Origin: Limosilactobacillus reuteri
GTDB lineage: Bacteria; Bacillota; Bacilli; Lactobacillales; Lactobacillaceae
Length of the DNA: 64,000 bases
NCBI RefSeq assembly: GCF_003072625.1
Contig: NZ_CP027805.1
Span: forward strand, 1,387,501-1,451,500
Reading direction: 5' to 3'
Under the pieces are notes generated by a model that ran no database searches, was not told the DNA's origin, and saw only the letters and a program-made list of their open reading frames with translations. A program made the position numbers and the translations under genes. Shown here piece by piece: positions 28,817 through 56,267 of this stretch; position 1 is the first letter of the stretch, and each line of letters begins with the position of its first letter.

Positions 28817-30706
28817 TTATTTAATTGTTTCAATCCGAACTCCGTCATCATTGAACACATAAGTTACGCCATTAATAACATGACGTCCCGTATAAGCAAC
28901 ACCATCTGCACCGAAGTAGTAACTCTTCTTAGCGCCATCATCATTAAACCAACGATTTGTTAACATATTACCATTCGCATCAAATCGGTAAAGACGACCG
29001 CGGTCATTCAAGAATTGATTTTGATACCGAATTCCATCAGCTCCAAAATATTGGTTATTACGCCATTGGTTAGTAACCTTTAGGAAGGTTATTGGGTCAA
29101 AATAGTAATAACTTCCATACCATTCTTGTAATCCTGATAGTACTTGACCATTATCGCCAATCAAGTACCAGTCACCCCACTGTGATTGAACATAGTTTCG
29201 CTTATTAGCTAGCAAGTGAGTTGCAGGATCAAAGTAATAGTAGGCACCATTCCATGATTGAACGCCGGATAAAGCTGCCCCATCATTGCCTAAGAGAACT
29301 CCACGACCATCTTTTTCTGTTTGAACATAAGTATTCTTTTCACGTAAATAAGTTACTGGGCTGGCATAGTAAGTGTTGCCATTATAATCATAAAGGCCAG
29401 TTACAATCTTACCATCTTTACCAAACATGTACCAGTCGCCCCATTGCGATTGAACATAATTATTATCTATACGTAAATGCGTCTGTGGATCGAAGTAATA
29501 GTAAGTACCGTTCCATTGCTGAACACCAGAAAGGGCTGCACCGTCATTTCCTAAAAGAACTCCACGACCATCTTTTTCTGTTTGAACATAAGTATTCTTT
29601 TCACGCAAATAAGTTGCTGGGTTGACATAGTAAGTATTGCCGTTGTAGTTGTAAAGACCAGTTACAATCCGACCATCATTACCGAACATGTACCAGTCGC
29701 CCCATTGCGATTGAGCATAACTGTTGTCCACCCGTAAATAGGTTGCTGGGTCAAAGTAATAATAAGTGCCAGCCCATTGTTGGACACCAGAGAGTACTTG
29801 ACCATTATCGCCAATCAAATACCAGTCGCCCCATTGCGATTGAACATAGTTTCGCTTATTAGCTAGCAAGTGAGTTGCAGGATCAAAGTAATAGTAAGTA
29901 CCGTTCCATTGCTGAACACCAGAAAGGGCTGCACCGTCATTTCCTAAAAGAACTCCACGACCATCTTTTTCTGTTTGGATATAAGTATTCTTTTCACGTA
30001 AATATGTTGATGGGTTAGCATAGTAAGTATTACCTTTATAGTTATACAGTCCACTTACAACTCGACCACCATTGCCAAACATATACCAATCGCCCCATTG
30101 TGATTGACGGTAGTCATTATCTACACGGAGGTAGGTCGTTGGATCAAAGTAGTAATAAGTACCAGCCCACGGTTGAACACCAGATTGAGCAATCCCATCC
30201 TTTACAAAGTACCAATTCGTATTTCCTTGAACATTTGTATCTGGAATTGTAGGTAATTGAACATATTGTGTTCCCTTTAAATCTTGATCAGTTTTACCAT
30301 TGTATACCCACTGGTTATCAGCATTTTTTTGCCAATCAGTTGTTTGTTGGCCTTTATTCTGCTCGTCGTTACCTGTAGATCCATTATCATTGCCAGCGTT
30401 TTCTTTTTGATTTTGTCCATTTTGAGGCTGATTCGTTTTACCAGAATTATTTGGCTGAGGGACATTATTTTTTACATCCCCAGTACTACTAGTTTTTCCT
30501 TGATCAGAAGCAGGCTGACTAGTATCAGTTGTACCCTTCTCTTGATTTACTTGGGCTTGAGGAGTTGAATCACCAGTAGTTAATGTATCCGCATTAACAG
30601 TAGTATTACCAGCTACTAAACCTAATGTTGCGGCAAATGTTACTACTGCCGCAATACACCATTGCTTGCCACTTTTGTAAAGTTTAAAGTGTTTCTTTAA
30701 CATCAT
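28817..30706 (-). CDS. KxYKxGKxW signal-peptide protein with aromatic wall-binding repeats, no enzyme domain
   Basis: A 629-residue secreted protein. The signal has KLYKSGKQW (residues 8-16) then a hydrophobic core to about 40. Residues 45-130 are a Gln/Asn/Thr/Gly-rich linker. From about 150 come around ten repeats of 33-45 residues built on WxGTYYYFDPxTxLRxxNxY and QSQWGDWYxFGxDGRIxSG. A variant form (NTYYxxPxTYLREKNTY) alternates with it. The end has shorter choline-binding-like repeats (YYFGADGVAYTG). The repeats look like glucan- or wall-binding modules of lactobacillary glucansucrases and hydrolases. No catalytic domain is found, so it may be a matrix or adhesion protein. Intact. Confidence 0.85.
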   Translation of the reverse strand: MMLKKHFKLYKSGKQWCIAAVVTFAATLGLVAGNTTVNADTLTTGDSTPQAQVNQEKGTTDTSQPASDQGKTSSTGDVKNNVPQPNNSGKTNQPQNGQNQKENAGNDNGSTGNDEQNKGQQTTDWQKNADNQWVYNGKTDQDLKGTQYVQLPTIPDTNVQGNTNWYFVKDGIAQSGVQPWAGTYYYFDPTTYLRVDNDYRQSQWGDWYMFGNGGRVVSGLYNYKGNTYYANPSTYLREKNTYIQTEKDGRGVLLGNDGAALSGVQQWNGTYYYFDPATHLLANKRNYVQSQWGDWYLIGDNGQVLSGVQQWAGTYYYFDPATYLRVDNSYAQSQWGDWYMFGNDGRIVTGLYNYNGNTYYVNPATYLREKNTYVQTEKDGRGVLLGNDGAALSGVQQWNGTYYYFDPQTHLRIDNNYVQSQWGDWYMFGKDGKIVTGLYDYNGNTYYASPVTYLREKNTYVQTEKDGRGVLLGNDGAALSGVQSWNGAYYYFDPATHLLANKRNYVQSQWGDWYLIGDNGQVLSGLQEWYGSYYYFDPITFLKVTNQWRNNQYFGADGIRYQNQFLNDRGRLYRFDANGNMLTNRWFNDDGAKKSYYFGADGVAYTGRHVINGVTYVFNDDGVRIETIK

Positions 30707-31775
30707 TACTATTACTCCTTCATTAATTAATTTACACGTAAATCATATCACGATTAATAATAGAAGGATATTAAAAAAGAAGCCAAGCTGATATTTAGCT
30801 TAACTTCTCAAGACATATTCTCCAACCATGCAAATAATAGTTACCAAAATTTGGTAATTTACCATAATAACCATTAATTTTCTACCTGATTAAATTTTCC
30901 AGTTCTTATCAACTGACATTAATCGTTCATTAACAACCTCAGTAATATCGTTTAATGATATGTTTGAGTGATGATCAACGCCGATGTTAGCCCATAGATC
31001 ATCATTGTGAGTATATGCATCATTTCCAATGCTATCAAACCAGTCTTTAAATAAAGAATTAATATTTTTTGAACTGAGGACATTGGAACTTAACTCTTTA
31101 TAGCGATTAATGATTTCTTGTTTATGATGAGCATAGAAGTTTAATAGGAGTTTATTATCATTTTCACGTAAAGTATCTTCAAAATTCTTAGTAATATCTT
31201 GCTTTGAATTATCCCAGTTAGTATCCCAAGTAGTATCTAAATCATATGGGATAATCGTCCATTTGCCATTATCCTTAGATACATACATAATATTCTTTCT
31301 TAATCCATCTGAATTATTAATAGCAAACGAAAAGGCTAGGTAGTCAATTGCAGCCGGTACATCAAAATATTTTTCTTCTAAGAATTGATAAGTTTGTTCA
31401 TCTGCATTAGCTAATTCGTATAATTTATTAAAATGATCTGCAACTTGCTGATTAACCTTTGCCGATGACGTATTGCTAAATACAGTATCTCTTAAATCAT
31501 CTACCGTTGCCATTGTATTAAAAGCTGTACATGGAGCATGATAATTTGCACTTAAAGCAATATTATTTGTCTTTTTGTCATTAAGATTATACAGTTTATC
31601 TTCGTGATACGTTTCCAAAACATATAATCCTTGGTCTAAGCCGTTAATACCAAATTCGACTGGAATTCCATTTACTTGACCATAGTTTGGCATCTTATTT
31701 ACAATACTATCCTTTAAACCTGGTCGGGATTTTGTTACTTCTGCAAATAAGCGCGAATTAACAATATTTAAACTC

Positions 31776-33095
31776 TGGTCCCCTGTCAATAAAATAGACA
31801 ATTTAAAATAGAGACTTTTTTGTCCTATGCCACGACTAAATTTTGAATTTGAGTTTGATACTCATCTTCAAGTTGCTTTGGTGATTTGAATCCACAATGA
31901 CTGTGAATTCTAACTGTGTTGTAAAACGTTTCAATGTACTGAAAAACTAGTCGTTTAGCTTCGGAGTATGAATGGATTTTAAACCGATTTATCCATTCAC
32001 GCTTAATCAAGGCATGAAACGACTCAATGCAGGCATTATCCCAAGGATAAGCTTTCTTTGAATAGCTTAATGTCATGTTAGCTGTAACTTGATTGTAAGC
32101 TTCAGACGTAAACTGACTACCACGATCACTGTGCATGATTAATGGCTTGCTAATATGGCGACTGTGCTTAGTCTTTTCAATAAGTGGGATGACATTCGAT
32201 ACCTCCAAGGTTTCAGATAAGTCCCAACCAATGATCCGTCGGGAGTACAAGTCCATAATACTGGTTAAATAAACGAATCCGTCATGAACTGGAATATAAG
32301 TGGTGTCAATGCACCAAACGGCGTTTGGTCGCAATGGATTGAACTGCTCGTCTAAAATATTTATTAGCTGTTTATCAAACTTAGAATTGCGAGTGGTAGT
32401 CGTCCAAGGGGTTAGGTAAACGGCGTGAATGCCAAGGTCACGCATATACTTACCAACAGTTCGTTCAGCGATCTTATATCCTTTTGAGCGAAGTTCTTGG
32501 GTGATTTTGCCGGCACCGTAAATACAAAGGCTTTTGAGCCAAATTGCTTTAATTTCACCTTGAATAAACTTCTTCCGAAGCTTTCGCGGTGATTGGTGAT
32601 TATGACGCTTTTCTCGTTGATAGTAACCACTTCTTGAGATTCCAACATAATCACACATACCATTGATGGAAGGGTGGGATTCCAAAGCGTGCTGAACGTC
32701 CATTTCTTGGTATACCTTTTCGGTAGTTACTTGCTCAGAATCCCGATTGATTTTTTTAATACTTCGATCGCTCCTTCAGCGTCACGAAGTTGACGCTTTA
32801 GTCGTGCAATCTCCTTGTCCTTATCGCTGGCAAAATTACCAGAGCCACGGCCAAACTCCCCAGTCTCAGTAAACAGCTTAATCCATTTATGTAATGTACT
32901 AGCCCCAATACCTAGATTCTTACTTATTTCATTCATGGTCATGTGATCCTTGTTATCTAAGTAATACTGAACGGCCTGTTCCTTAAATTCCTTGTCATAA
33001 CTGTGCTTCGTCATTATTTGATCCTCCAATTTACTTCCTTAATTATACTAAATCAGAGTCTCTATTTAACTTGTATACTTTTTATTCTAGGCCCA
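31776..33095 (-). mobile_element. IS3-family insertion sequence, copy A (1320 bp)
   Basis: Ends TGGTCC/TGGGCC (inward) followed by a longer shared repeat with TTAAATAGAGACT. CTC is duplicated at 31773-31775 and 33096-33098. It is virtually identical to copy B at 34657, in opposite orientation 1.5 kb away. Confidence 0.94.
31825..33014 (-). CDS. IS3-family transposase OrfAB (copy A)
   Basis: OrfA (33014-32727, start ATG after GGAGG; the TTG at 33029 overlaps that site and is rejected) has a helix-turn-helix and coiled coil. OrfB (to 31825) has HTH_21 and the DDE core: VWCIDTTYIP, MHSDRGSQFTS, DNACIESFHALIKREW. A -1 slip at A AAA AAA near the end of orfA leads into INRDSEQVTTEK and fuses both to about 390 residues, the active form in this family. 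Confidence 0.92.
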
Positions 33096-34656
33096 CTCAT
33101 CGTTGGGTCAGTAAAGCACCCCTTTAAGTTAAATGAGTTGGTCTTATAACCAGTACCCGGTAATTCAATTTTGTATTTTTCAATTAATTCTTGATCCTTA
33201 AATAATTTTATCCGATATCCTTTTTTAGGCCATGCAAGGCTGCTATTTCCTTGCCACTTAATTGTTGCCCAAGCATCTAGTTGACTACCATCAGTTTGAG
33301 TAAGCTTAAATTTAACTACTTTTTTATTATCTTTTGTAATTCCAGATAAATCGCCATCAACGGAAAGAGAAGCCAAATTAGGAAACTTTTTCGAATCAAA
33401 AATATTTGTAAGCTGTCCTTGTTCGTCCGTCTTATGGAGCACACTATCAACTAAATAAGTAGCATTTTTATAGTTAAAGCCATCAATCCTAGCACCAGTA
33501 TAACCATAGTATTCTCCATCCGCCCAGGCATTCGTTACTTTCAGATAAGTCCGCGGATCAAAATAGTAAGTCTTACCATACCAATTCCATACACCAGAAA
33601 CAATTCGCCCATCGGGCCCAAACATATACCAGTCGCCCCACTGGGATTGACGATAGTCATTATCCACACGAAGATAGGTCACTGGATCAAAGTAGTAATA
33701 AGTTCCTGCCCACTGCTGAACACCTGACTGAATTCGTCCATCATTGCCAAAGAGATACCAATCTCCCCATTGAGATTGACGATAGTCGTTATCCACACGA
33801 AGGTAGGTCACTGGATCAAAATAATAATATGATCCAGCCCATTGGTAAACTTTGGTAACAATTCGCCCATCGGGCCCAAACATATACCAGTCGCCCCACT
33901 GGGATTGACGATAATCATTATCTACTCTGAGATAAGTATTAGGGTCAAAATAGTAATAGGTCCCTGCCCACTGCTGAACACCTGACTGAACTCGTCCATC
34001 ATTGCCAAAGAGGTACCAATCCCCCCATTGAGATTGTCGGTAGTCGTTATCCACACGAAGGTAGGTCACTGGATCAAAATAATAATATGATCCAGCCCAT
34101 TGCTGAACGCCAGATTGAGCAATACCGTTATCAAGTAAGTACCAATTATTATCACTCTGAACATTTGTTGCTGGGATACTTGGTAAATTAATATACTGTC
34201 GTCCAGTCAGTGAATGCCCCTCTTGATAGTAAACTAATTGTCCCTGTTCATTTTTTAACCAACCATTTTGAACTGATGATTGAGACAATTGACTAGCTTG
34301 TGGAGTCACATTTTGTACATCATCATTTTTCTTAATACTAACTGAAATATTTTCATTATTATTAGTTACAGTAGAATCTGGTTTAGTATCTGTATTTGAC
34401 ACTGATGCCTGGACTATTGATGTCGCTGGCTCTGCAGCAGCTTCAATCCCATTACTTGCAAATACTAACCCACTAATTGTGCTGACAGTAACAATCATAA
34501 TTGTTACCCATCGCTTACCACTTTTACACATTTTGAAGTGTTGCTTTAACATTTAAATAAACCTCTCCCAATAATATAAGTTCCCATTCTATCATACTAA
34601 AAATATAAAAAAGAAACTAGATCACATAATAGATTGCACATAAATTACCAACTGAG

Positions 34657-36023: not shown

Positions 36024-37100
36024 TTAAGGCATAATATTACGAACAAATGGGATTTTTCTAATCAAAAAGGTAATTATTCCACTAATAAAGTAGACAAAAA
36101 TTGGATAAAGTAAAATCTTAAAAATTAGTGGTACTTGCAATAACAACGGTTGCATCGGATTGAGCAGATAATTAATGACGAAGGGATGAACTAAATAAAT
36201 TCCAAACGTTAATCCAGCTAATGTCGGTAAATATGAGCTAAGATGCCAGCCAATGATATAAGGTTCAGCATTCTTCAAAGCTAAAAACAAAGCACACATA
36301 CAAATAAAAGCAGGTAAATTACCAATATCAGCAAAATTCTTCACAATTTCTCCAGGATAAGTTAGCCGTTGGAGATGAGGAATAAAAATTGTGAAAATAA
36401 TTGTCATTACTATTTCCAGTGCCAACATTATTGTTGCTAGAATATATATCAATTTCCGTATTCTTGGCTTTATAGAAATATTTACTATGTACCAGCCAGC
36501 TAAGAAATACTGTAAATAAGCTCCCACGAGTGGAATTGACGGATTAAACATATTAGATGTGCCTAAAATTAGATCTACGATGGGGAGAATTGTATTATAA
36601 ATTAAGGCAATAATAATCATATACCTAACAAGCCTTGCATTTCCTTTTTCAGTAATAATCGACATAAAAGGAACACAGAGATAAAATCCAATAATATTAT
36701 AAAAAAACCAATAAGGACCAACAATATTACCAGAAATAAAGCCCTTTAAGAAATTCAAACCATTAATACTACCTAATTGGTTATTATGAAGAAAAATAAA
36801 ACCTAAAATACTCCATAATAGAAATGGAATTACTACCTTATGAACTCGTTTCTTCACAAATGTTTTAGTACTATATCGCTCACGATAAGTTAAAACATTA
36901 GCTCCAGACTGCATGAAAAAGATGGGAACTCCAAAGGAAAATAGAATTCCAATTAGAATAAAAAGCACCGGATAAAAGCTAAAGTGATCTGTTTTAATTC
37001 CAAAAGAATCCGGGTTAGCTACTGTATGTAAAACAACCACTGCAAAGGATGAGATAATGGTATTTAAATACATAAAATAATATCTATTTTTCTTCTGCAT
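36024..37100 (-). CDS. Acyltransferase family 3 membrane protein (O-acetyltransferase-like)
   Basis: A 358-residue protein with about ten membrane segments, family PF01757. Visible features are the early VVVLHTV (histidine expected in the active site), FFMQSGANVLTYRER and a FVKKRVHKVVIPFLLWS stretch. These enzymes move acyl groups, often acetyl, onto surface polysaccharides or peptidoglycan. It overlaps the end of the PTPS-related gene by 17 bases and is last in a three-gene operon. It resembles the acyltransferase at 62496 (shared MxSGAMLxNYRER-like motif). The acceptor is unknown. Confidence 0.85.
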   Translation of the reverse strand: MQKKNRYYFMYLNTIISSFAVVVLHTVANPDSFGIKTDHFSFYPVLFILIGILFSFGVPIFFMQSGANVLTYRERYSTKTFVKKRVHKVVIPFLLWSILGFIFLHNNQLGSINGLNFLKGFISGNIVGPYWFFYNIIGFYLCVPFMSIITEKGNARLVRYMIIIALIYNTILPIVDLILGTSNMFNPSIPLVGAYLQYFLAGWYIVNISIKPRIRKLIYILATIMLALEIVMTIIFTIFIPHLQRLTYPGEIVKNFADIGNLPAFICMCALFLALKNAEPYIIGWHLSSYLPTLAGLTFGIYLVHPFVINYLLNPMQPLLLQVPLIFKILLYPIFVYFISGIITFLIRKIPFVRNIMP

Positions 37101-38136: not shown

Positions 38137-39494
38137 GGGAGTGTAAAATATTTTGTGTAAATTGATACCTTGAGGGTATTGAAAAAGGGAAAGCCTTCCC
38201 CGTATGATTGAAATCGCTAAAAACCAATCAGAATACGGAGGCTTTCCCCATGAACCAGTTTAACAAAGATATTATCGCAGCGCTATCTTCAGACAAAGAT
38301 ATTACCCTGAATGAAGTCTTACGTTGTCAAATTGAAGTGGCCGCTAATCAGTTCCTTCAAAATGAACTGACTGCGGTGCTAGGCTACGAACCACATACCC
38401 GGATCGACCGATCAAAAGGCGACGTGAACTACCGGAACGGGGCGTACACCCGCACGATCGACACTGAGTACGGTGAAATTAATCTGACGATCCCACGGGA
38501 CCGGTTAAACAAGTTTCAAAACGCCCTCTTCCCTCCTTACGTGCGTCGGACTGATGGACTGGAGGAAATGGTCATCAAGATGTACTCCAAGGGCGTCACA
38601 ACTCGTGAAATCGCTGATATGGTTGAGAGAATGTACGGCCACTACTACTCACCAACCACGGTTTCAAACATCACTAAGCGGACGGAACACCTGGTTGAAG
38701 AGTTCCACGAGCGCAAATTCAAGTACTCACAGTACGTCTGTGTGTTCCTCGATGCTACTTACATTCCGTTACGCCGTGGTACCGTTGAACGAGAAGCCGT
38801 TAACGTAGCGATCGGAATTCGAAGTGACGGCGGTAAGGAAGTTCTTGACTACAGTATCGCACCGACCGAGAACGGAGCCGCTTGGTCTGAACTACTCCAG
38901 GGATTACGCGCACGGGGGATTAAAGATATTCAGTTGTTCATCGCCGATGGTTTAGTTGGACTTCAATCTGCGATTGAGGCTAACTACCCGCAGGCGAAGT
39001 TTCAACGGTGCTGGGTCCACGCAGAGCGCAACCTTTTAGGGTACGTTCGCAAAAACGATCGCAGGGAGATTATCACCGACTTTAAGGCTATTCGGCAAGC
39101 AGAGAACCTACAAGACGCCAAAGAACGATTGGCGGCTTTCAGTGCTAAGTGGGAGTCCAGTTATAAGCGTCGAATCAAGAATCTAGTCCAAATGGAGGAT
39201 CTATTCACGTTCTTCAGTTTTCCAACTGCGATCCGTCAGACCATCTACTCGACGAACCTAATTGAGTCGTTCAATAAGAGCCTGAAGAAGATGGTCCGAC
39301 GTAAAGAGCAGTTCCCAAACGAAGGGGCCCTCGATCGCTTTATCATGACGCAAGTGATGGAGTACAACGATAAATTTGAGAATCGAGCACATCGGGGATT
39401 CAAGGACTGTCACGACACGCTTGATTCGATGTTTTAGAATTGCCAATTCATGCGGGCGAAGTTTCCTTTTTTACACAACATTCTTGACACTCTC
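38137..39494 (+). mobile_element. IS256-family insertion sequence (1358 bp)
   Basis: Inverted ends GGGAGTGT and GAGAGTGT, with further matching GTGTAAA blocks. An exact 8-base duplication AATATATT is at 38129-38136 and 39495-39502, the expected length for IS256. Confidence 0.95.
38250..39437 (+). CDS. IS256-family transposase
   Basis: A 395-residue mutator-type DDE transposase. The core has CVFLDATYIPLRR (first Asp), LFIADGLVGLQSAI (second Asp), the FQRCWVHAERNLL C/H motif, and STNLIESFNKSLKK with the catalytic Glu. ATG 38250 is preferred over 38208 because GGAGG lies eight bases upstream. Intact. Confidence 0.95.
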   Translation: MNQFNKDIIAALSSDKDITLNEVLRCQIEVAANQFLQNELTAVLGYEPHTRIDRSKGDVNYRNGAYTRTIDTEYGEINLTIPRDRLNKFQNALFPPYVRRTDGLEEMVIKMYSKGVTTREIADMVERMYGHYYSPTTVSNITKRTEHLVEEFHERKFKYSQYVCVFLDATYIPLRRGTVEREAVNVAIGIRSDGGKEVLDYSIAPTENGAAWSELLQGLRARGIKDIQLFIADGLVGLQSAIEANYPQAKFQRCWVHAERNLLGYVRKNDRREIITDFKAIRQAENLQDAKERLAAFSAKWESSYKRRIKNLVQMEDLFTFFSFPTAIRQTIYSTNLIESFNKSLKKMVRRKEQFPNEGALDRFIMTQVMEYNDKFENRAHRGFKDCHDTLDSMF

Positions 39495-40169: not shown

Positions 40170-41216
40170 TTATGCATTTTTCTCTCCTAAACTTATTATT
40201 TTAAAAATTAATGAGCGAAATACATCTAATAAAATTGCTCCTAAGTACCAAATACTTGCAGTGAATATCAATTCAATTATCATTCGAAGTGGGGATAGCT
40301 TTTGTAAAAAAAGATAATTATTGGTAATTAAAAAAGCAAAAACAAGTGGATTTGTTTGCAGTAAATAAGCGCTAAACGAGTGAACACCTAAAAAAGTCAC
40401 AATATTTGATATCAATTTATTTTGTACTTTAACCTGCAGAAGTAAGAGAAAAACAAGTATTGACAATGTTGTTACTAAAGAAAAATTATATTGAAATTCT
40501 GACATTGCTAATCCATTACCATCTAAATATAATTTATGATTATGTAAGTAGTAAGATATTCCAACTAATAGACCCCAATTAATAATTATTAAAAGCATTA
40601 AGAATCCTTTTTTCTTAAGCAGTTGTGGTAAACCAAATTTTCTAAAATATGCCCCATAAATATATAGAATAATTAGCCAAAGGCCACAATATCCCATTTC
40701 CAGATTAAACATGTCATTTTGAGGGTTAATAGTTAACACACTTGTTAATATAAAAAGCCCTGTTAATAAGTACTGATAAGGTTTCTTTTCCAAGTTATGT
40801 AAACCTTTATTTATAATTGGCATTAAAACAAACAGAATCACATAACCATTCCAATACCAGTATGCCTTAAAATATGTTGGAAAAAGATTATGGAAGATAT
40901 TATCAGTTGTAAGCTGATTTCTTCTATATAGTCCAAAATATAATAAAATAAACCAAGAAAAAAATAATACTTGAAACCATAATTCAATAAAACGCCTCAT
41001 CCGATGATGTGAATATAAACCAACATAACCTGAAACTAATGCAAAAAGATTTACCGATATAACAGTCAATTCAACTATTACACGTCCTAAAAAAAGATTC
41101 ATATTATTAGATGGCTGAACAGTCATCCAACTACCATTAAGTAATAAGTGATAATTCATTATCATAAACATAGCAATGACTCTAATAAGGTCAATCCCAA
41201 AAATTCTCTGTTTCAT
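40170..41216 (-). CDS. Acyltransferase family 3 membrane protein
   Basis: A 348-residue protein with about ten membrane segments (PF01757). It starts MKQRIFGIDLIRVIAMFMI, followed by MNYHLLL with the likely active-site histidine (about residue 25). ATG 41216 is chosen because AAGGAGAG lies just before it, while 41261 has none. Its stop overlaps the start of the PTPS-related gene (ATGCATAA). First gene of the acyltransferase / membrane protein / acyltransferase operon; the terminator of the C39 gene lies directly upstream. The acceptor is unknown. Confidence 0.85.
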   Translation of the reverse strand: MKQRIFGIDLIRVIAMFMIMNYHLLLNGSWMTVQPSNNMNLFLGRVIVELTVISVNLFALVSGYVGLYSHHRMRRFIELWFQVLFFSWFILLYFGLYRRNQLTTDNIFHNLFPTYFKAYWYWNGYVILFVLMPIINKGLHNLEKKPYQYLLTGLFILTSVLTINPQNDMFNLEMGYCGLWLIILYIYGAYFRKFGLPQLLKKKGFLMLLIIINWGLLVGISYYLHNHKLYLDGNGLAMSEFQYNFSLVTTLSILVFLLLLQVKVQNKLISNIVTFLGVHSFSAYLLQTNPLVFAFLITNNYLFLQKLSPLRMIIELIFTASIWYLGAILLDVFRSLIFKIISLGEKNA

Positions 41217-41231
41217 TTTATTCTCTCCTTG

Positions 41232-41273
41232 AAAAAAGGACCGTGATTTTACTACTATCACAGTCCTTTTTTT
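41232..41273 (-). terminator. Terminator of the C39-type gene
   Basis: AAAAAAGGAC(C/T)GTGAT pairs with ATCACAGTCCTTTTTT across an 11-nt loop, with U-runs on both strands. It overlaps the last stop codon of the C39 gene by two bases. Confidence 0.9.
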
Positions 41274-42825
41274 AATAAATAGTTATTGCTTGACCACCAT
41301 ACTCATTAGCTAATTGGCCCCAAGTAATCCATGCGTTCCAACCGCGGTCATAAGCAGTATGTCCTTCACTATTCGCACTCCAGCCACCATTGCCATAGCA
41401 AGGATCATAAACATGGAACATTCCGTTATTGCGATTATATCCTAAAAGGATTTTACAATGGTTTCGTACTCCCCCAGCATCGTATGGAGAGTAGCCATAG
41501 TAAAGAACTGGATGCCCATTTAAAATACTATTGGCAATTTGACTAATGGTTGCACCAGAGGAATCAGAGACACCATCATACCAACGTTGTCCGTAAGCAG
41601 CTAAGGCGTTAGGCTGAATTACTCGACTAAAGCCAGCACCATTATATGGATTACCAATCTGACCGCCATTACCTCCTTGGGGAATTCCGGCAATCACATT
41701 TCCAACTCCTGGCCAAATATTATGAGTACTTAGTAACATAGTTAAAGCAGCTCCTGCGCATCCCCAACCAGCCCATACTGGTGTAAACTGTGAGAAATAA
41801 TGAACCGTATGAGCGACTCCATTATTGTCAGCCCAGTAAGTATCCCAATTATTCCAATACCCATTACCATTAAAGTAAGTATTAGTTAATTTTAGAAAAG
41901 TTGTCGGATCAAAGAAGTAGAGTGAACCATACTAACTACAGAAGCCCGAAATGATACGTCCATCGCTACCAAACATATACCAGTCACCCCATTGGGATTG
42001 ACGATAATCATTATTTACTCGTAAATAGGTAGTTGGATCAAAATAATAGTAGGTTCCGGCCCATTGGTATACTTGTGATGCAATACGTCCATCGCTACCA
42101 AACATATACCAGTCACCCCATTGAGATTGACGATAATCATTATCTACTCGCAGATAAGTAATTGGGTCAAAGTAATAATAAGTTCCAGCCCACTGATATA
42201 CCCGTGAAGCAATACTACCGTCACCACTAAACATGTACCAGTCACCCCATTGGGACTTAACATAATTATTAGTAACCTTTAGATGGGTAACTGAGTCAAA
42301 GTAATAATAAGTTCCAGCCCACTGCTGAACACCGGATTGGGCTACTCCATTATCAACTAAATACCAGTTATTGCCAGTACCATTAATTGTTGGCAAGTAA
42401 GAATAAGTACGACCTTCAGCTGGACGTCCATTAACATAGTAAACCCATTGATTATCTTCGTTTTTCCAACCATTTTTTACTGTAGATGATTGTACAGCAA
42501 CCGGTGTTGGTAAAGATTGATCTGAAGTTAATAGTTGTTGTGCATTACTTTTTATATCAGCCTTTTCTGACTGAATTTTCATAGTGGAAATATTTTGAGT
42601 CTGTGCAGAATCATAAGTCGTAATAACATTATCGTTAGTAACTGTATTAACTCTACCATTAGTAGTTAAATTATTAGCTGCTTGAACTGTATGATTTGTA
42701 TCAGTTGTGTCAGTTGCGTCAGCAGTAGTCGCGTTGTCAGCATTAGCCGTAGAAGCTACCCCCATAGCCATCAAAGCAGCAATTGTGATCGCCATTAAAC
42801 ACCACTTTTTTCCCGCCTTATATAA

Positions 42826-44000: not shown

Positions 44001-44948
44001 TTATTTATTTTTTAACCATTGATGTACGTCTTGCAACCTAAATTCAAATTCCCGACGCTCTTTTCTTTGAATTGCATCCAATATTAGACCACTATAGAAG
44101 GAAATAATTGCAGCAACTACACAAAAGCCACATACAACCAATGTTGGCATATTTGCCACTTTGCCAGTTAAATGGTATGGAACCCAGACATGAGGGATAA
44201 AAAATGCAGCAGCAATAATAGTTAAAATCATGGCAAGTAACCCATAAAATTTAAAAGGCTTATAATTCCTATAAAGTGTAAAAATTAACCAAAGAACCTT
44301 AAATCCATCCGAAAAAGTATTCAATTTAGATTCACTACCAGCTGGTCGGTCACGATATTCAATAACATGATTAATCATTGCCATATTATTAACAATTGCA
44401 AAAATACTCATTTCAGTCTCTATTTCAAACCCTTTCGATAGTACGGGATAAGTCTTAACAAATTCAGCACTAAAAGCCCGGTAGCCTGTCATTATGTCAC
44501 GAATATCATTTTTGAAAAAGAAATTAATACTACCACGAACTAATTTATTACCAATTCCATGAAACGGTCGCTTATTTTCCTCAAAATAACTGGAACTAAG
44601 TCGATCTCCAATTACCATGTCATACTTTTTATTTAAAACATAACTTGCCATCTTAGGAATTTCTTCTGCTGGATAAGTATCATCTCCATCGATCATAATG
44701 TAACATTCTGCATCAATTTCCCGAAACATCCGTCGAATGACATTGCCTTTCCCTTGCATATATTCGTGACGAACTACCGCTCCAGCTTCCTTAGCCAATT
44801 TAACTGTATTGTCAGTAGAATTGTTATCGTAGACATACACAGTTGAATTTGGAATATTAGCAATTGCTAACTTACAATCTAACACAACTTTTTTAATCGT
44901 TTTTTCTTCGTTATAGCACGGAATTAGAATAGCAATTTTATCGGTCAT
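44001..44948 (-). CDS. GT2 glycosyltransferase, polyprenyl-phosphate sugar synthase type
   Basis: A 315-residue GT-A enzyme with IAILIPCYNEEKTI at the N-terminus, YDNNSTDNT, and the DxD metal site in IDGDDTYPAEE (about residue 92). Two C-terminal membrane helices (about 230-290) are present. This layout is that of DPM1/GtrB-type enzymes, which make a polyprenyl-phosphate sugar donor for membrane GT-C transferases. It starts three bases from the stop of the DUF6020 gene, a likely GT-C partner. The sugar is not known. Confidence 0.85.
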   Translation of the reverse strand: MTDKIAILIPCYNEEKTIKKVVLDCKLAIANIPNSTVYVYDNNSTDNTVKLAKEAGAVVRHEYMQGKGNVIRRMFREIDAECYIMIDGDDTYPAEEIPKMASYVLNKKYDMVIGDRLSSSYFEENKRPFHGIGNKLVRGSINFFFKNDIRDIMTGYRAFSAEFVKTYPVLSKGFEIETEMSIFAIVNNMAMINHVIEYRDRPAGSESKLNTFSDGFKVLWLIFTLYRNYKPFKFYGLLAMILTIIAAAFFIPHVWVPYHLTGKVANMPTLVVCGFCVVAAIISFYSGLILDAIQRKERREFEFRLQDVHQWLKNK

Positions 44949-44950
44949 TG

Positions 44951-46813
44951 TTATTTCTCCTTTCTTGTTTGAAATGAGTTATATCGCCTTTGCCATAAAT
45001 ACGTAATTACAATTGGTAAAGCCGCCAAGGCACCAATCGTATATCTTGTATAACCATTAATTGATGTTACCGTAAACAGCATACACATAATTATTAAGGG
45101 CAAGAGGAACATTATCCCCCGCCAGTCCTTCCATATTATTAACATAAATAATAATATTAAGGCTAACCATACTAACGTAGCTGGGTTAACAATAATTGCT
45201 AAAGGTGGAAACATAGCTATCATCATTAGTATCTGACGAGATACATCCCGAACATTGTTGCTAAACAAAGGATAATATTTCTTAAACCATGATGGATGCA
45301 GGAAATTTGGCATTGGTGGATAATAATTAAGAAACAAACCTGCGTCATACAAAATAAATGGATTTAGGTACCGTGAATTTGCTTCTAAATAAACTCTGAA
45401 ATATTGACAAGGATGTTTTAGCCCAGTAATTAGCCATAGTTTTAAGTAGTTAATTGTTGCCTTTTTTTCCTTACTAGTAGTATTTAGTGTCTTCTTTCCA
45501 TTCACTACATCACTAATCAAATCCGCACTATTCAAAAATGTATCTGATGGATATAATGATTTTAAGGAATCACCATTATTTATATCGTATTTATTTTTTA
45601 TTTCAGATATATTAGTAATTTCATTAATCGTCTTTAACTCAGTTTTATTAAAATATTTAGGATCAGTTATATATACATAACTTAACTGTCTTATTGGAAT
45701 AGTTAATGCTTCTGAAGGTGAACTCTTGATTACATTTTCCTTATTCAAGAAGGCATTCCATCCCATATGGACGCCAAGTATTATTCCAAAAGAACAAAGA
45801 ATAAATATTAACTTTTGTTTCTCCATTAGGGTCATAGCTATCAATATCCCGGTAGTTATGACAACAATCAAAAATGCATCATTTCTAAAAAGACCAGCTA
45901 ACGTTGATGAGATAATATATGAAATGATATCTATATATTTCCAGTTTTTATCTTTAATATTTTCATACAACTTTGTAAAGCTTAAATAGAACCAAGCGGA
46001 GAAAGCATAATAAAGTGTACTCTTATCAATCGTTACTGCGTATGAGCTAAAAATAGGCGAAGCGAATAATAAGAATGAAATAATTCCTCCGATTTTTCCA
46101 ATTTTTGTCCATACGTATTTAATAACAAAAGTATAGATAAGACTACTTACAATAAATTGAAAAATAACAACTGTAAAAACACCGAAATTAACTCCAAATA
46201 ATGATCTCCCCAGATTAAAAAGCAAACCGAATATAACAGTAGTGAACCAAGGGTGATGATTAGTTGGGCTATAAGTAAAATTTAACTGATTAAGATGAGT
46301 TCTATCAAATTCACAAAACTGTTTTAAACCATCCCAAGAAATTTGACCTGGTAATAGCCATACTATTGAAATGAACCAAATCAATGCTAATAAAAGCCAA
46401 ATATAAAGGGTCTTTGGTACCACTACTTTTTCCTTTGGTATTACTATTCCAAAAAACTTTCTAATATAAGTAAAAGAAACTGTAAACATAATCATCCAAC
46501 TAATCCAAGAAAATGTTGTTAAAAACAAATTCACCCCATCAGTAAGATAAAGCTTTACATTACTTACAACAAAAGTAGCGCAGTATAAGGAAGAAAAAAT
46601 AAAACCAATTATCCAATCATATTTTAAAATATACTGTATTTTTCCCTTTTGCATTCCAACATAAAGCATTACAGCCCATAAAGTAAAAAGAATGGAGTAA
46701 TATATATTACTATTAAAACGTGGGACATTAAAATCACCTGGATAGGTAATATTAATGCCAACTAAAGCAAATGCTAATATTACTAACCAATATCGAATCT
46801 TAATCTTATCCAT
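44951..46813 (-). CDS. DUF6020-like GT-C membrane protein
   Basis: A 620-residue protein with about thirteen membrane segments. The first large extracytoplasmic loop has WDGLKQFCEFDR and YSPTNHHPWFTTVIFG, which recall the catalytic loop of GT-C protein or glycan glycosyltransferases. A long extracytoplasmic loop (about 375-480) follows. ATG 46813 is preferred over 46855 because AGGAG is directly upstream. Coupled with a polyprenyl-phosphate sugar synthase, it would use that donor to decorate a surface polymer outside the cell. Family call from pattern. Confidence 0.75.
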   Translation of the reverse strand: MDKIKIRYWLVILAFALVGINITYPGDFNVPRFNSNIYYSILFTLWAVMLYVGMQKGKIQYILKYDWIIGFIFSSLYCATFVVSNVKLYLTDGVNLFLTTFSWISWMIMFTVSFTYIRKFFGIVIPKEKVVVPKTLYIWLLLALIWFISIVWLLPGQISWDGLKQFCEFDRTHLNQLNFTYSPTNHHPWFTTVIFGLLFNLGRSLFGVNFGVFTVVIFQFIVSSLIYTFVIKYVWTKIGKIGGIISFLLFASPIFSSYAVTIDKSTLYYAFSAWFYLSFTKLYENIKDKNWKYIDIISYIISSTLAGLFRNDAFLIVVITTGILIAMTLMEKQKLIFILCSFGIILGVHMGWNAFLNKENVIKSSPSEALTIPIRQLSYVYITDPKYFNKTELKTINEITNISEIKNKYDINNGDSLKSLYPSDTFLNSADLISDVVNGKKTLNTTSKEKKATINYLKLWLITGLKHPCQYFRVYLEANSRYLNPFILYDAGLFLNYYPPMPNFLHPSWFKKYYPLFSNNVRDVSRQILMMIAMFPPLAIIVNPATLVWLALILLFMLIIWKDWRGIMFLLPLIIMCMLFTVTSINGYTRYTIGALAALPIVITYLWQRRYNSFQTRKEK

Positions 46814-46831
46814 TTTTGTTCTCCTAATAAA

Positions 46832-46866
46832 AATAAGCCGGTTGCAAATTTGCATACCGACTTATT
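46832..46866 (-). terminator. Terminator of the lipoprotein gene
   Basis: On the minus strand AATAAGTCGGTATGCA pairs with TGCAACCGGCTTATT with minor mismatches, followed by TTTATT. It lies between the lipoprotein and DUF6020 genes. Confidence 0.75.
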
Positions 46867-46903: not shown

Positions 46904-47497
46904 TTAATTTCCAGTTACTGAATTAGCTGTTACATGATAAGTATGACCATTCCCTGAAATTGTCCAATCATTAGTACCATTTTGAGTAGCTGTATAACCA
47001 TCTACCGAATCAATTGATGGTAGATCATCAGTTGATTGTCCTGCCTCACCACGATTGTTTAATTGATTACCAATATGTTCCTTAACAATGTTACGCGCAT
47101 CTGTAGCAGTCATTGTTGCTTGTTGAGAGCTAGTATTATTTTGCTTTACGCTAGATTTAGTTGAACCATCATTAGTACTTGAAGTGGTAGAAGAAACAGA
47201 GTAATTTTGATGAAATTTAGTACTTGATGAACTTGTAGTATCTAAAGATGTACCTTTTGTGGAAGAGACGCTATTATTTTGAGATGTTCCCTCATTTTTA
47301 CTGTTGTTTTCCTTATCTGAGGTATCTTTTTTAGCAGTTACTTTATCTTTATTTGAATGATTCTTTTTAGTTACTTTACTAGAAGTAGTGGCTTCATTTT
47401 TAGTAGAACTTTCGGAAGCGCTATTACTACCACACGCAGCCAATGTTAGCATTAGTGAACCAGCAGCTAAAGTTGTGAATAGTTTTTTTAATTTCAT
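46904..47497 (-). CDS. Ser/Thr-rich lipoprotein of unknown function
   Basis: A 197-residue protein with a clear lipobox LAACGS (Cys at about residue 22) after a hydrophobic signal. Residues 25-125 are a Ser/Thr/Lys/Asn-rich, probably disordered or glycosylated stalk. The C-terminal 70 residues form a small domain (TATDARNIVKEHIGNQL... GHTYHVTANSVTGN) of PepSY-like appearance. It sits between the glycan genes and the NlpC/P60 gene, on the same strand, with its own terminator. Function not recognised. Confidence 0.8.
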   Translation of the reverse strand: MKLKKLFTTLAAGSLMLTLAACGSNSASESSTKNEATTSSKVTKKNHSNKDKVTAKKDTSDKENNSKNEGTSQNNSVSSTKGTSLDTTSSSSTKFHQNYSVSSTTSSTNDGSTKSSVKQNNTSSQQATMTATDARNIVKEHIGNQLNNRGEAGQSTDDLPSIDSVDGYTATQNGTNDWTISGNGHTYHVTANSVTGN

Positions 47498-47579: not shown

Positions 47580-48830
47580 TTACATAGTAATGTAGAAGCT
47601 TGGTGTGAAGTATTTAGAATAACCAATTTTTACAACGTCACCTGGTTCTGGAGCGTGAACATAAGTACCATCACCGAGAGAAATTGCCACGTGATAAGGT
47701 GCATTATCACTACCGAAGAATAATAATGAGCCTTTAGGTGCATTTATGACATCATGTTCGTGAGTCCCAAGTGTAGCTTGTTGATAGGTAGTTCGGTAAG
47801 AAGGACCTAAGCCATAAGCCCATTGAACAAGTCCTGAACAGTCAAAACCAGCTGGTGTATTTCCACCCCAAACGTAAGGTACACCCCGTTGTGATAAAGC
47901 CTTGTCAACTTTTGCATCTACATTTGAAACTGCTTTAGCAACCCCATCATTATCTAAATGATATTTAGTACCATTTACTGTTACGTCTGTATTAACCACT
48001 TTCGTAAAGGTTACAGGATCAAAATAATATGTTTGTCCTTTCCAGGTTTGTAGCCCACTTAAAATCCGGCCATCGTTACCGAAAAGGTACCATGAACCCC
48101 ATTGAGATTGACGATAATCATTATCTACTCGAAGATAAGTGGTTGGGTCAAAGTAGTAATAAGTCCCAGCCCACTTTTGAACTCCAGTTTGGATCCGGCC
48201 ATCGTTACCGAAAAGGTACCATGAACCCCATTGAGATTGAACATAGTTATTATCTACTCGTTGATAATTATTATTAGCATCAAAATCGTAATAAGTCCCA
48301 GCCCACTTTTGAACTCCCGACTGTACAATTCCATTGTCTACTAAGTACCAACTATGCCCTTCTCCATTGATTGTTGGGAGATAGGAGTAATTTCGACCAG
48401 AAGTGACTTGACCATTATTGTAGTAAGTCCAGTTATTATTTTCATTTACCCATCCATTCTTTACTTCTGCTGCTTGAGGTTGAACAGCAGTACTAGCAAC
48501 GGGAGCTGCTAAGTTTTCTTCTACTGCTTTTGTTTCTGAAGAAACTGTATTTTGGGAAATATCTGAAGTAACATCATTTTGAGATGTTTCTGTATTAATA
48601 GTTGTTGCTTCACTGGCAATCATTGAAGCAGCATTTGCGCTAGTCGCTGAGATAGTAGAAGGATCTGCAGAATTACCAGCCACTTGGGTAGTTTGTACAG
48701 GAGATGTTGTAGTGTTAATCTCATCAGCATTTGCAGTAGTAGCTAATCCAATAACACTAGCAACAGCCGCAATTGTCATAACACACCATTTTTTCCATCT
48801 TTGTATAACTTGTAATGTTTCTTAGTATCC
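47580..48830 (-). pseudogene. KxYKxGKxW / repeat protein with NlpC/P60 domain, frameshifted in signal
   Basis: The signal is read from ATG 48830 as KHYKLYKDGK, then shifts because the poly-A tract (48787-48792 on the plus strand) has six bases where seven are needed for GKKW. The body from 48779 is open for 399 residues: a Ser/Thr linker, three aromatic repeats, then an NlpC/P60 endopeptidase domain with FDCSGLVQWAYG (Cys), YHVAISLGDG (His) and YVHAPEPG. Such enzymes cut stem peptides of peptidoglycan. Without the shift the gene would be whole; slippage, phase variation or a sequencing error are all possible. Confidence 0.82.
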
Positions 48831-49091: not shown

Positions 49092-50565
49092 CTATGCGCG
49101 AGCTTGATTTTTTAGGCGGTAAACATATTGATATGGATAATCAGCAAGATTTCTATACCAATTATAATTAACTTCTTGAATGGCTGTTCCTCGTTCACCT
49201 TCTGTTAAGTAACAAGTTGAAATAACTGTTGGATTATCCCCGGAACCTGTTGCCACCATTGTATGTCCATTACCACCAAGACTAGCGGCTTTCTTTCCCC
49301 AAATAATCACATCACCATATTGAAGAGAAGTCTCCCCTTTACCCTCATAAGCTAAATAATAACCGTTATTAAGTAGGTAACCATGAAGTGTTTCAGTACT
49401 GTAAATAATTTGCGGAGCAGATGCACCAGCTGTACGGAGCGCCATCGTCATGGAACCAGAACAGTCGGCAGTTCCATCAGCACCTGTTCGTGAACCATAC
49501 ATTGAGTATGTAATTTTTCCTTCACGTTGTAAGAACCAGTTAATTACGCGAGTTGAAAATCCACCATTGACCAAACGTCCGTCAGCACCAAAATATAGTC
49601 CTTCGCGCCATTCATTATTAACACGAAGATAAGTTACGGGATCGAAATAATAGACTGAACCAGCCCAACGGTGTGCACCGGTTTGAATACGACCATCTGA
49701 TCCAAATAAGTACCAGTCCCCCCATTGCGATTGACGATAATCATTGTCTACTCGTAGATAGGTATTAGGATCGAAATAGTAATATGTGCCAGCCCACTTC
49801 TGTACTTGTGTTGCAATTCGGCCGTCATTACCGAATAAGTACCAGTCCCCCCATTGTGATTGGACATAATTATTGTCTACTCGAAGGTAGGTATTAGGAT
49901 CGAAATAGTAATATGTGCCAGCCCACTTTTGTACTTGTGTTGCAATTCGGCCGTCATTACCAAAAAGATACCAGTCCCCCCCATTGTGATTGGACATAAT
50001 TATTGTCTACTCGAAGGTAGGTATTTGGGTCAAAGTCATAATATGTATCTGCCCATTTTTGAACACCAGATAACACAACCCCATTATCTGTTAAATACCA
50101 GTTATTACCCGTTCCTGTACCATTAGCTGTGATAGTAGGTAAATAGGAATATACTCGACCCGTGGTTGTTTTACCATTTTGATCATAGAATGTCCATCCT
50201 TGAGTCTCTTTTTGCCACCCTGTCTTAGTAGCTTCACCTTGCGGATGAACTGGATTATCACTTGTTGTATCTGATACAGTTGTTTCACTCTTTGACGCAT
50301 CAATATTTTCTTTATTATCGGCTGTTATTAAATTAGTATTTGAATCCGATTGTACAGATAAAGATTTTTCGGTTGTTGATTGAGCTGAAGTTTCTTCTTG
50401 TTGTGTATTCGCTTGTACTTGTGTTGTGTCAATTGACGAATTTACAACATTTGTATCAGCACTAACAATTCCCGTTAATCCTAATGTTATTCCCATTGTT
50501 GCAATGGCCATAACACACCAATTTTTTCCCGATTTATATAGCTTAAAATGTTTTTTTATATTCAC
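49092..50565 (-). pseudogene. KxYKxGKxW / repeat protein with phage-type amidase domain, frameshifted
   Basis: The start at 50565 gives KLYKSGKNW, a Ser/Thr/Gln linker and the first repeats. At 49976-49982 a run of seven C (plus strand) replaces the six found in the equivalent repeats, turning QWGDWYLF into QWGGLVSFW and a stop. The rest, from 49997, has three more repeats and a C-terminal domain like phage peptidoglycan amidohydrolases (Amidase_5, PF05382) with YSMYGSRTG, ADCSGSMTMAL (Cys), and GHTMVATG (His). Joined length is about 490 residues. Slippage or sequencing error at the homopolymer is the only defect. Confidence 0.85.
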
Positions 50566-54662: not shown

Positions 54663-54707
54663 AAAAACCGGATGATGAATTGTTCAAAAATTCATCATCC
54701 GGTTTTT
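54663..54707. terminator. Hairpin upstream of the IS1182 transposase
   Basis: AAAAACCGGATGATGAA, an 11-nt loop, then its exact complement ending in five T. It may stop outside transcripts entering the transposase gene. It is nearly the same as the hairpin at 25165. Confidence 0.8.
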
Positions 54708-54743
54708 ATTTTGGACTAGGAGTTTTTTCCCAGCCTCTTTTTA

Positions 54744-56267
54744 TTACAGTACCTCTCTATCCCATGCATCCAAGTTATATGTCCTAATGACATTATTCAA
54801 ATTGGAAGCATATTTCGGATCAGTTGCGTAACCATCATCGTGAAGATATTGAGTTACAACTGCATAGTCCTTTTTCCATAAAAGATTCCTATAACGACTA
54901 TTTGTAGCTAGGAAGCGACCATGATCGACTACACTCTCGTAATTGCTAGGATACTTTCGAAAAGCATCATTAATATAATAGTAACCACCAGCTCCATACT
55001 CTGCTGTCCGCATCGTAATAGATTGACCATTATAACTACCTTTAATTCCAAACAAATTATGGCCTTGCGTAGCCAATGCTGATTGTCCCCATGCACTTTC
55101 CAAAATTGCTTGAGCCGCAGTAACAGATGGTAATACACCATATTGACGCCATCCGTCTAGAGCAGCATCATGTATACTCAAAAGGAAGGTTGCATTTTTA
55201 TTCACACCAGAAATAATCCCTGTGCTATCAGCATACAGACTTATTCCACCTACCGTAATATTCTTATTTGTTACCTTTAAATAGGTTACAGGATCAAAAT
55301 AATAGTAGTTTCCTGCCCACTTTTGTAAACCTGAAAGGATACGACCATCATTGCCAAATAAGTACCAATCGCCCCATTGTGATTGACGATAATCATTGTC
55401 TACCCGGAGATATGTAGTGGGGTCAAAGTAATAATAAGTACCTGCCCATTTTTGAACACCAGACTGAATCTTTCCGTCATTGCCAAATAAGTACCAATCG
55501 CCCCATTGTGATTGACGATAATCATTGTCTACCCGGAGATATGTAATAGGATCAAAGTAGTAATAAGTACCTGCCCACTTCTGAACTTTAGTTTGAATCG
55601 TACCATCATTACCAAACAGGTACCAGTCACCCCATTGTGACTTAACATAATTATTATCTACTCGAAGATAGGTATTTGAGTCAAAATCGTAGTATGTATT
55701 AGCCCACTTTTGAACTCCACTTAAAACAACACCATTTTCTGTTAAATACCAATTATTACCATTCCCTGTACCATTGGCTGTAATTGTGGGTAAATAAGAA
55801 TAAGCACGACCAGTATTTGTTACACCATTATTATAATAAGTCCAACCCTGTTCTTCTTTTACCCAACCATTTTTTACGTTAGATGTTGCTTGTGGGATTA
55901 CTGCAACTAAACTAGTATCAAGTGAATTTTTGTTTTGACTTTGCTCAACTTGACTCGTTACTAAAGTGTTATTTACCGATTGATCATTTTGACTAAGTGT
56001 AGTTTGTTGACTTGAATTATTATCCCCAATAATCTCATTTGCTGACTGATTATTATTTGAAAGAGTAACGCTACTTTCATTAGCGTTACTACTTACTGTG
56101 TCAGCACTTGTTTGAGCACTAACTTCATCGCTTGAAGCAGTAGTACTTGATGCGTCATCTGCATTGGCTACTCCCGTTAAGCCAAGTGTTACTGCTACTG
56201 TAGCAAGTGCCATAACACACCATTTCTTACCGCTTTTATATAGTTTAAAGTGTTTGCTTGTTTCCAT
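54744..56267 (-). CDS. KxYKxGKxW / repeat protein with GH73 glucosaminidase domain
   Basis: A 507-residue secreted hydrolase, intact. The signal has KLYKSGKKW (residues 7-15) and a hydrophobic core ending near 37. A Ser/Asn/Gln/Thr linker (38-135) and five aromatic repeats (about 140-340) follow, then a GH73 N-acetylglucosaminidase domain (about 350-505) with the catalytic Glu in AAQAILESAWGQSA, NLFGIKG, and HDDGYATDPKYASNL. It would cut peptidoglycan glycan strands, with the repeats holding it at the wall. RBS GGAAAGGAT upstream is weak but well spaced. It is the only repeat protein of the set with both an enzyme domain and an unbroken frame. Confidence 0.92.
   Translation of the reverse strand: METSKHFKLYKSGKKWCVMALATVAVTLGLTGVANADDASSTTASSDEVSAQTSADTVSSNANESSVTLSNNNQSANEIIGDNNSSQQTTLSQNDQSVNNTLVTSQVEQSQNKNSLDTSLVAVIPQATSNVKNGWVKEEQGWTYYNNGVTNTGRAYSYLPTITANGTGNGNNWYLTENGVVLSGVQKWANTYYDFDSNTYLRVDNNYVKSQWGDWYLFGNDGTIQTKVQKWAGTYYYFDPITYLRVDNDYRQSQWGDWYLFGNDGKIQSGVQKWAGTYYYFDPTTYLRVDNDYRQSQWGDWYLFGNDGRILSGLQKWAGNYYYFDPVTYLKVTNKNITVGGISLYADSTGIISGVNKNATFLLSIHDAALDGWRQYGVLPSVTAAQAILESAWGQSALATQGHNLFGIKGSYNGQSITMRTAEYGAGGYYYINDAFRKYPSNYESVVDHGRFLATNSRYRNLLWKKDYAVVTQYLHDDGYATDPKYASNLNNVIRTYNLDAWDREVL

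Follow-up and report, generated by a model that had tools for sequence, protein, structure and literature searches.

The window analysed here is a 64,000-base stretch of Limosilactobacillus reuteri (positions 1387501-1451500 of the single 2,044,184-base contig NZ_CP027805.1; genome G000 in our set). Between its positions 28817 and 56267 lie six minus-strand genes for secreted proteins that have one aromatic repeat of 43 amino acids, module A, in common. We propose that this module is an address tag by which proteins are held to the decorated polymer on the surface of their own cell, a reading to which we give a probability of about 0.55; we infer the binding, the ligand and the acyl group. What was observed directly is the common module, its absence from the rest of this genome, the near-exclusive use of a single module type per genome, and the co-variation of module type with glycan genes and acyltransferases. 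Taken together, the sequences suggest that wall enzymes are directed to the coat of their own species through a probable sugar-polymer-binding tag.

The repeat (consensus WAGTYYYFDPxTYLRVDNxYxQSQWGDWYxFGxDGRI) was found by pattern as 24 units or part-units in the six genes. Its profile matched 29 times in the genome, always at window positions 29039-55706; thus, no other locus of this genome has the module. An earlier reading of the letters without database searches (the sequence-only reading) had described six genes with one repeat and different ends, and both claims were borne out. Pfam identified CotH (PF08757, 3.9e-21), Peptidase_C39_2 (9.2e-8), NLPC_P60 (6.1e-19), Amidase_5 (1.2e-22) and Glucosaminidase (1.4e-37) as the C-terminal domains of five genes, and none in the protein of the sixth, P1. 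The KxYKxGKxW signal that the same reading had given to the whole family (PF19258 / TIGR03715) exceeded the curated cut-off in four of the six, P1 and the CotH, Amidase_5 and GH73 proteins; the signal coding of the NlpC and C39 genes is visible upstream, where it is broken, being out of frame or cut. The reading had missed that four of the six genes are broken and that P1 and the GH73 gene alone are intact. The genes and their parts are as follows.

28817..30706, minus strand: P1, a secreted protein of 629 aa with nine module-A matches and no catalytic domain; gene intact
30890..31801, minus strand: 3' part of the CotH-type gene (PF08757); an unbroken 689-aa relative is present in contig L123
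31825..33029, minus strand: two open reading frames of an insertion sequence (IS) of IS3 type, inside the CotH-type gene
33062..34552, minus strand: 5' part of the CotH-type module-A gene, with signal, module A and the start of the CotH region; broken by the IS
41272..41739, minus strand: 3' part of the C39-type gene, with the Peptidase_C39_2 domain; an unbroken relative is present in contig L121
41932..42795, minus strand: 5' part of the C39-type gene, with module A interrupted by an in-frame stop; its start seems to be missing
47580..48779, minus strand: NlpC/P60 module-A gene, with a frameshift in the signal-peptide coding
49092..49997, minus strand: 3' part of the Amidase_5 gene, with module A and the Amidase_5 domain
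49957..50565, minus strand: 5' part of the Amidase_5 module-A gene, with the signal and first module unit, ahead of the frameshift
54744..56267, minus strand: GH73 glucosaminidase with module A, intact, 507 aa

In other species, the loci around wzz contain similar hydrolases with other repeats. We distinguished five tag types, namely A (that of the window), B (a 21-aa repeat, FYNNWGHTYYFGxGGVRLDDG), C, D and E (RDV repeats), and searched 50 genomes of the genus for each, with thresholds of 1e-3 for A and 1e-8 for B-E. Types A, B, C, D and E occurred in 13, 11, 7, 5 and 24 genomes, respectively; for type A, 10 genomes were strong, and three with a single weak match were dropped ahead of the counts. 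Some tag type was present in 47/50 genomes, and 38 of those 47 had a single type. The commonest type of each genome accounted for 1906/1966 counted modules (96.9%), or 1604/1664 without three partly scored genomes, the counts being lower bounds in G023 and G041 (types C and D) and in G021 (type E). Two types at five or more copies each were found together in 4/50 genomes, compared with 12.0 expected, and 0/10,000 shuffles gave a number as low.

The enzymes under these tags were of the GH73, NlpC, amidase, M23, GH53 and GH70 kinds. GH73, GH70 and GH53 were each seen with tags A, B, C and E, and M23 with B, C, D and E; the interchangeable effectors predicted from the window were thus found across genomes, as the same enzyme kinds under different tags. 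All GH70 matches found were considered, and 10/11 carried the commonest type of their host, with the exception in the mixed genome G016; two GH70 proteins of G007 run off their contigs. Agreement with the genome's type was 14/14 for GH73 (loci partly chosen by type), 7/8 for GH53 galactanases and 14/15 for M23, and it was favoured for all kinds but GH70 because many loci were taken from type-specific hit lists. Likewise, 199/222 pairs from separate loci of the same genome were of the same type, which we do not take as proof because several of the far loci came from such lists. The GH53 galactanases (L066 339-4610, L081 3-4454 and L072 180-4601) look like a plant-galactan enzyme held on the cell surface.

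Just past the window, the same genome encodes RecX, DUF4422, GT2, a sugar transferase (sugT), YveQ, Wzz, Glf and Wzx. Pfam and NCBIfam confirmed Wzz, the sugar transferase and UDP-galactopyranose mutase; the YveQ-like protein is without a family hit in either and is Wzy-like by its position and membrane spans. In six other type-A genomes (G009, G013, G016, G032, G034 and G049), module hydrolases lie in or adjoin a cluster comprising all or part of the set Wzx, Glf, Wzz, glycosyltransferases and acyltransferase; in G032, the parts of this cluster are on separate contigs. A tagged protein of any type was present on the wzz-bearing stretch in 32/39 genomes of the genus, the window and the sequence that continues it to the right being treated as a single stretch.

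The sequence-only reading had proposed asking whether module type co-varies with glycan genes, and this check was run in silico. Module type followed the glycan genes, most sharply an O-acyltransferase family; DUF6020 and the sister-pair test on single glycan genes gave no such support. In partial Mantel tests corrected for rpoB, genomes of the same type had similar genes for Wzx (r -0.36), sugT (-0.32), YveQ (-0.31) and Wzz (-0.25), all with p 0.0002, and for DUF4422 (-0.22, p 0.0004 or less); the flanking gene RecX tracked weakly (-0.08, p 0.034). On the rpoB DNA tree, tag type changed at least 18 times. The number of changes was 18 on rpoB versus 11 on YveQ among 37 genomes, and 14 versus 10 on Wzx among 31. 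In the 26 genomes with RecX, sugT, YveQ, Wzz and rpoB, there were 14 changes on rpoB DNA (13 on the protein), 8 on YveQ, 9 on Wzz, and 11 on each of sugT and RecX. The RNA polymerase subunit RpoB of G000 (type A) and G004 (type B) is 99.5% identical, and Glf and sugT are 94% and 90% alike, but YveQ is only 36% alike. The loci of G003 (type B) and G027 (type D) are near-identical, with Wzx at 97% and sugT at 41%; G003 has a relative (28%) of the acyltransferase family AcB described below, and none was seen in the stretch of G027.

Three presence patterns failed to mark a type. DUF6020, which the sequence-only reading had named, was found in 9/50 genomes and in only 3/10 strong module-A genomes (G000, G016 and G032). 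Galactofuranosyltransferase-like genes (33/50) and Wzz-like genes (40/50) were too common to separate types.

From the wzz loci of 39 genomes, the genes other than those with modules were clustered (ACYLTRANSFERASES), and the 39 clusters obtained at 45% identity or the 32 obtained at 35% were tested against the five types. The family that stood out for type A includes a gene of the window, AcA.

62496..63566, minus strand: AcA, O-acyltransferase PF01757, of a family present in all type-A genomes examined; a candidate for the gene that determines the ligand; nearest module gene 6.2 kb away

At 35% identity, AcA occurred in 7/7 type-A genomes (as two fragments in G009) and in 1/32 others (p 5.2e-7), and at 45% in 6/7 and 1/32 (p 1.5e-5). 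A second acyltransferase family, AcB, occurred in 5/8 type-B genomes and 0/31 others, or in 7/8 and 0/31 with distant members (28-30%) included. In phylogenetically independent pairs, AcA agreed with the expected direction in 6/6 (sign test, p 0.031) and AcB, in its wider set, in 7/8 with the eighth uninformative (p 0.016). Thus, by the partial Mantel tests and these pairs, binder type co-varies with polymer genes beyond phylogeny. A GT2 family accompanied type E in 7/13 genomes versus 0/26 others, with a non-significant independent-pair test (median p 0.0625), and some type-E loci contain genes that by eye resemble those of dTDP-rhamnose synthesis. AcA or AcB lay at most 320 bases from a module gene in 11/15 genomes having one. 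Further, L. urinaemulieris and Fructilactobacillus florum, the latter of a different genus, have AcA relatives immediately next to GH73 genes with module A; Weissella loci have a distant relative (30-32%). Among the papers listed by our literature search, which was not exhaustive and was judged by title and the start of the abstract, none described co-variation between tag type and glycan genes.

If module A is an address tag, the KxYKxGKxW signal would take the proteins out of the cell, and the aromatic solenoid repeat would hold them on the cell's own surface by binding a heteropolysaccharide made or decorated by the locus. The enzymes behind the tag (peptidoglycan hydrolases and, in relatives, also M23 peptidases, GH53 galactanase and GH70 glucanotransferases) would act at the wall bearing that polymer. 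Because the polymer would vary by species, almost all such proteins of a species would have a single tag type, and a new polymer would bring a new tag. For type A, the distinguishing feature would most likely be an O-acyl group added by AcA.

Several results weigh against this proposal. Glf did not track tag type (partial Mantel -0.05, p 0.099), and in the most conservative test, that of sister pairs, YveQ, Wzx, Wzz, sugT, Glf and RecX were all non-significant (for YveQ, 7 same-tag versus 9 different-tag pairs, p 0.18); for this reason we make no claim that the tag is determined by the polymerase alone. YveQ was at most 50% identical in 8/9 different-type sister pairs and also in 4/7 same-type pairs (three of type E, one of type D), and type E accompanies very different polymerases. 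The acyltransferase counts cover the examined loci rather than whole genomes, and without distant members the count of AcB falls back from 7/8 to 5/8. AcA of G032 lies on a module-bearing contig apart from wzz, and this contig was taken for its module genes; AcA of the window is 6.2 kb distant from its closest module gene. A relative of AcA occurs together with type C in G014, and loci with A-type repeats in Loigolactobacillus, Furfurilactobacillus, Leuconostoc and Fructilactobacillus sanfranciscensis showed no AcA in the stretch examined. Four genomes are of mixed type (G004, G016, G025 and G046), and NlpC proteins agreed with their genome's type in only 12/16. Physical linkage of the tag genes, AcA and wzx could yield part of the co-variation. 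G025 and G046 are draft genomes, in which the mixture of tag types may reflect mixed binning or real coexistence.

In sequence, module A appears close to choline- and glucan-binding solenoid repeats, with weak to moderate Pfam matches to the former. The choline-binding repeat PF19127 (Choline_bind_3, cut-off 27 bits) matched P1 (43.8 bits), the Amidase_5 part (39.2) and the NlpC protein (27.2); the CotH protein remained under the cut-off (19), and the C39 and GH73 proteins gave no match. A Pfam search with PF01473 gave no matches in the genome and none in the controls either. The glucan-binding repeat TIGR04035 did not reach its cut-off of 147.7 bits in any window protein, the best score being 76.1 bits (P1). 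Against the PDB, the module profile matched the dextransucrase chain 7dt1_A at 6.8e-34, followed by pneumococcal autolysins at about 6e-7. A fold search with a model of the GH73 protein, whose predicted local distance difference test (pLDDT) score was 44 overall and about 56-73 in the repeats, gave 102 PDB matches at E<=0.001, and the best 50 of these 102 were mainly choline-binding, GH70 and CROP modules. The model of P1 was poor (pLDDT 34). Solved modules of LytA, LytB, CbpF and CbpJ were among the structure and PDB matches.

These likenesses allow for other ligands, of which a glucan or another wall component are the chief alternatives. Module A might bind alpha-glucan, as domain V of GH70 enzymes does, and the proteins would then stick to a glucan coat or matrix. 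The module is fused to GH70 in G013, G034 and G049 and in Fructilactobacillus sanfranciscensis, one unit of the solved dextransucrase 7dt1_A scores 93.5 bits to its profile, and the TIGR04035 matches, weak as they are, point the same way. Further, deletion of gtfW, a GH70 gene, in L. reuteri lowers adhesion to dextran beads, as PMC5366311 reports, a result that also speaks against an address tag; however, the deletion took away the catalytic domain too. No GH70 match was found in 6/10 strong module-A genomes, including that of the window (one of the six, G024, is 82% complete), and on this ground we rejected a GH70 product as the only ligand. The module is also present on GH53 galactanase and endolysins, and in other species GH70 enzymes have modules of type C or E, the latter of FNIII-type fold according to PMC11299179. 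We consider a glucan-binding role unlikely. It also seems improbable that the module binds another wall component, such as peptidoglycan, teichoic acid or its decoration, that varies with the polysaccharide locus by chance. The choline-binding modules of LytB, CbpF and CbpJ among the solved folds nearest to the low-confidence GH73 model would suit such a ligand, and genes of DUF6020, GT2 and PTPS type could, from what is known of these families, decorate teichoic acids. Yet the strongest co-variation is with Wzx, sugT, the Wzy-like gene and the acyltransferases of this locus, and DUF6020 occurs in just 9/50 genomes.

The likeness of the tags within a genome might instead stem from duplication and recombination, that is, concerted evolution, and their tracking of the glycan locus from linkage only. 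Repeats readily recombine, close species differ by whole blocks, most AcA and AcB genes are close to tag genes, and silent sites are slightly more alike within a gene than between genes. Among 15 repeat units of the window, identical residues had the same codon with a frequency of 0.595 within genes and 0.501 between genes, the latter at or beyond the 0.557 expected from the codon usage of neighbouring genes. The silent sites between genes are thus randomised, which argues that the repeats are old and are kept alike at the protein level by selection, not by recent copying. Moreover, types A-D resemble choline-binding repeats, whereas E is FNIII-type; they seldom occur in one genome, and conversion cannot turn one fold into the other. 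G041 has at least 113 type-C matches in at least six separate loci, and sugT, far from the tags, tracks their type, whereas Glf, which is nearer, does not. An origin in concerted evolution and linkage is, in our view, quite unlikely.

Phage genes also bear on the address tag because lysins carry wall-binding domains, and module A on a lysin supports wall binding. Prophage-like regions of the type-A genomes G034 and G049 encode an endolysin with module A; PHROGs assigned three of these proteins to endolysin families and, next to one of the two in G034, further genes to holin and tail families. The prophage endolysins in L060, L061 and L064 have module A and a signal-like N-terminus without KxYKxGKxW. 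We queried a phage collection with types A, B and C. In the phages LR1 and LR2 (host L. reuteri ATCC PTA 6475), a gene annotated as lysin has a repeat related to module A (47.8% identity), with a holin adjoining in LR1. Type B matched no phage in this collection, and type C matched 25 records, 21 of which were Streptococcus phages. Lysin binding domains of other families in lactobacilli bind some L. reuteri strains and not others, according to PMC10610939.

Extended to the genus, the proposal becomes an address code, which we put forward tentatively and at somewhat less than even odds. Nearly all secreted wall enzymes of a genome would carry one of at least five interchangeable putative wall-binding modules of two folds, all swapped together upon a change of the surface polysaccharide, chiefly in its O-acyl decoration or in certain glycosyltransferases, and phages of type-A hosts would have the same tag on their lysins.

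In pneumococcus, a solenoid choline-binding repeat is common to several wall enzymes, non-catalytic proteins and phage lysins, and the ligand is choline. The present system resembles it in placing one probable solenoid repeat on the same range of proteins and would work like it; in contrast, at least five tag types here replace one another between species and follow polysaccharide genes, and tags that alternate with surface-polymer genes would be the new feature. The SLH domain binds a secondary wall polymer pyruvylated by CsaB, as one widespread module with one modification. There a binding module is matched to a polymer decoration whose enzyme gene co-occurs, as would be the case here, whereas the present alternative modules pair with alternative acyltransferases or glycosyltransferases. 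Domain V of GH70 enzymes has the same repeat unit (7dt1_A) and, in three genomes of the genus, module A itself. Unlike domain V, the module is mainly on peptidoglycan hydrolases, also in genomes without a GH70 match, and GH70 enzymes follow the tag type of their host in 10/11 cases. RDV repeats of Lactobacillus GH70 enzymes form FNIII-type domains, as PMC11299179 describes; type E contains the RDV motif and is present on GH70 of G021, G030 and G031, but also on GH73, GH53, M23 and NlpC proteins, as an alternative to the solenoid tags in 24/50 genomes. In the same paper, a solenoid at the C-terminus of DsrP is reported to bind the cell wall, apparently without the involvement of choline, and dextran binding was not blocked by this.

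The remaining features of the locus are the following.

26090..27646, minus strand: PTPS-related membrane protein; weak Pfam hit
27639..28757, minus strand: AI-2E family transporter, which adjoins module genes in other species too
36024..37100, minus strand: Acyltransferase_3
40170..41261, minus strand: Acyltransferase-3-like membrane protein; a 77% relative lies beside the unbroken C39 module gene in L121
42845..43813, minus strand: IS30-like transposase upstream of the C39-type gene; named by eye, with Pfam rve at 32.1 bits, just below the cut-off
44001..44948, minus strand: GT2 glycosyltransferase, paired with DUF6020
44951..46855, minus strand: DUF6020 membrane protein
46904..47497, minus strand: small lipoprotein-like gene beside the NlpC gene, as in several other species
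58333..62468, minus strand: four tandem genes like beta-1,6-galactofuranosyltransferases; NCBIfam hit below the cut-off for the one scanned

Among the neighbours expected from the letters alone, the acyltransferases, DUF6020 and GT2 were confirmed, together with the AI-2E transporter; the PTPS match was weak (E 0.005, below the cut-off). GT2 and DUF6020 (44001-46855) resemble a polyprenyl-phosphate-sugar pair and may act in extracellular glycosylation. The small lipoprotein-like gene recurs within or next to loci that carry modules of type A, C or D (window 46904-47497; L083 16843-17712; L090 10885-11367). Two adjoining galactofuranosyltransferase-like genes (58333-60427) have a near-identical C-terminal part and a different N-terminus, which suggests recent recombination. 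Adjacent genes for tRNA-Ala and tRNA-Ile are at 1197-1349.

Four broken module genes and the mobile elements in and beside the locus indicate that the set is decaying in this genome, while relatives retain it. The IS3-type element interrupts the CotH gene, whose halves align in succession with the single 689-aa protein of L123; the exact ends of the element were looked for and were not found. The C39 gene seems to have lost its start beside the IS30-like transposase. The NlpC gene is frameshifted inside its signal coding and the Amidase_5 gene at a run of G; both sites are at or near short homopolymers, so that sequencing error is possible. Further, a PTPS-like gene is seemingly split by a Mutator-type transposase (38208-39437). 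Within the locus or next to it are transposases of IS3, IS21, Mutator, ISL3 and IS4/5 type, together with the IS30-like one and a group II intron maturase; some of the IS names were given by eye. Contigs L121 and L123 are filed under a metagenome-assembled genome of Candidatus Avigastranaerophilus and carry Limosilactobacillus-type module genes, including the unbroken C39 and CotH relatives; they are probably mis-binned.

If the proposed address tag is true, the surface polymer that a binding module recognises would be predictable from sequence in gut lactobacilli, and the modules would be usable as typing or display reagents. It would also raise the question of how, upon a change of coat, a cell exchanges the tags of so many scattered enzymes. 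Further, because related GH70 enzymes carry different tags, the ligand of their "glucan-binding" repeats would become directly testable.

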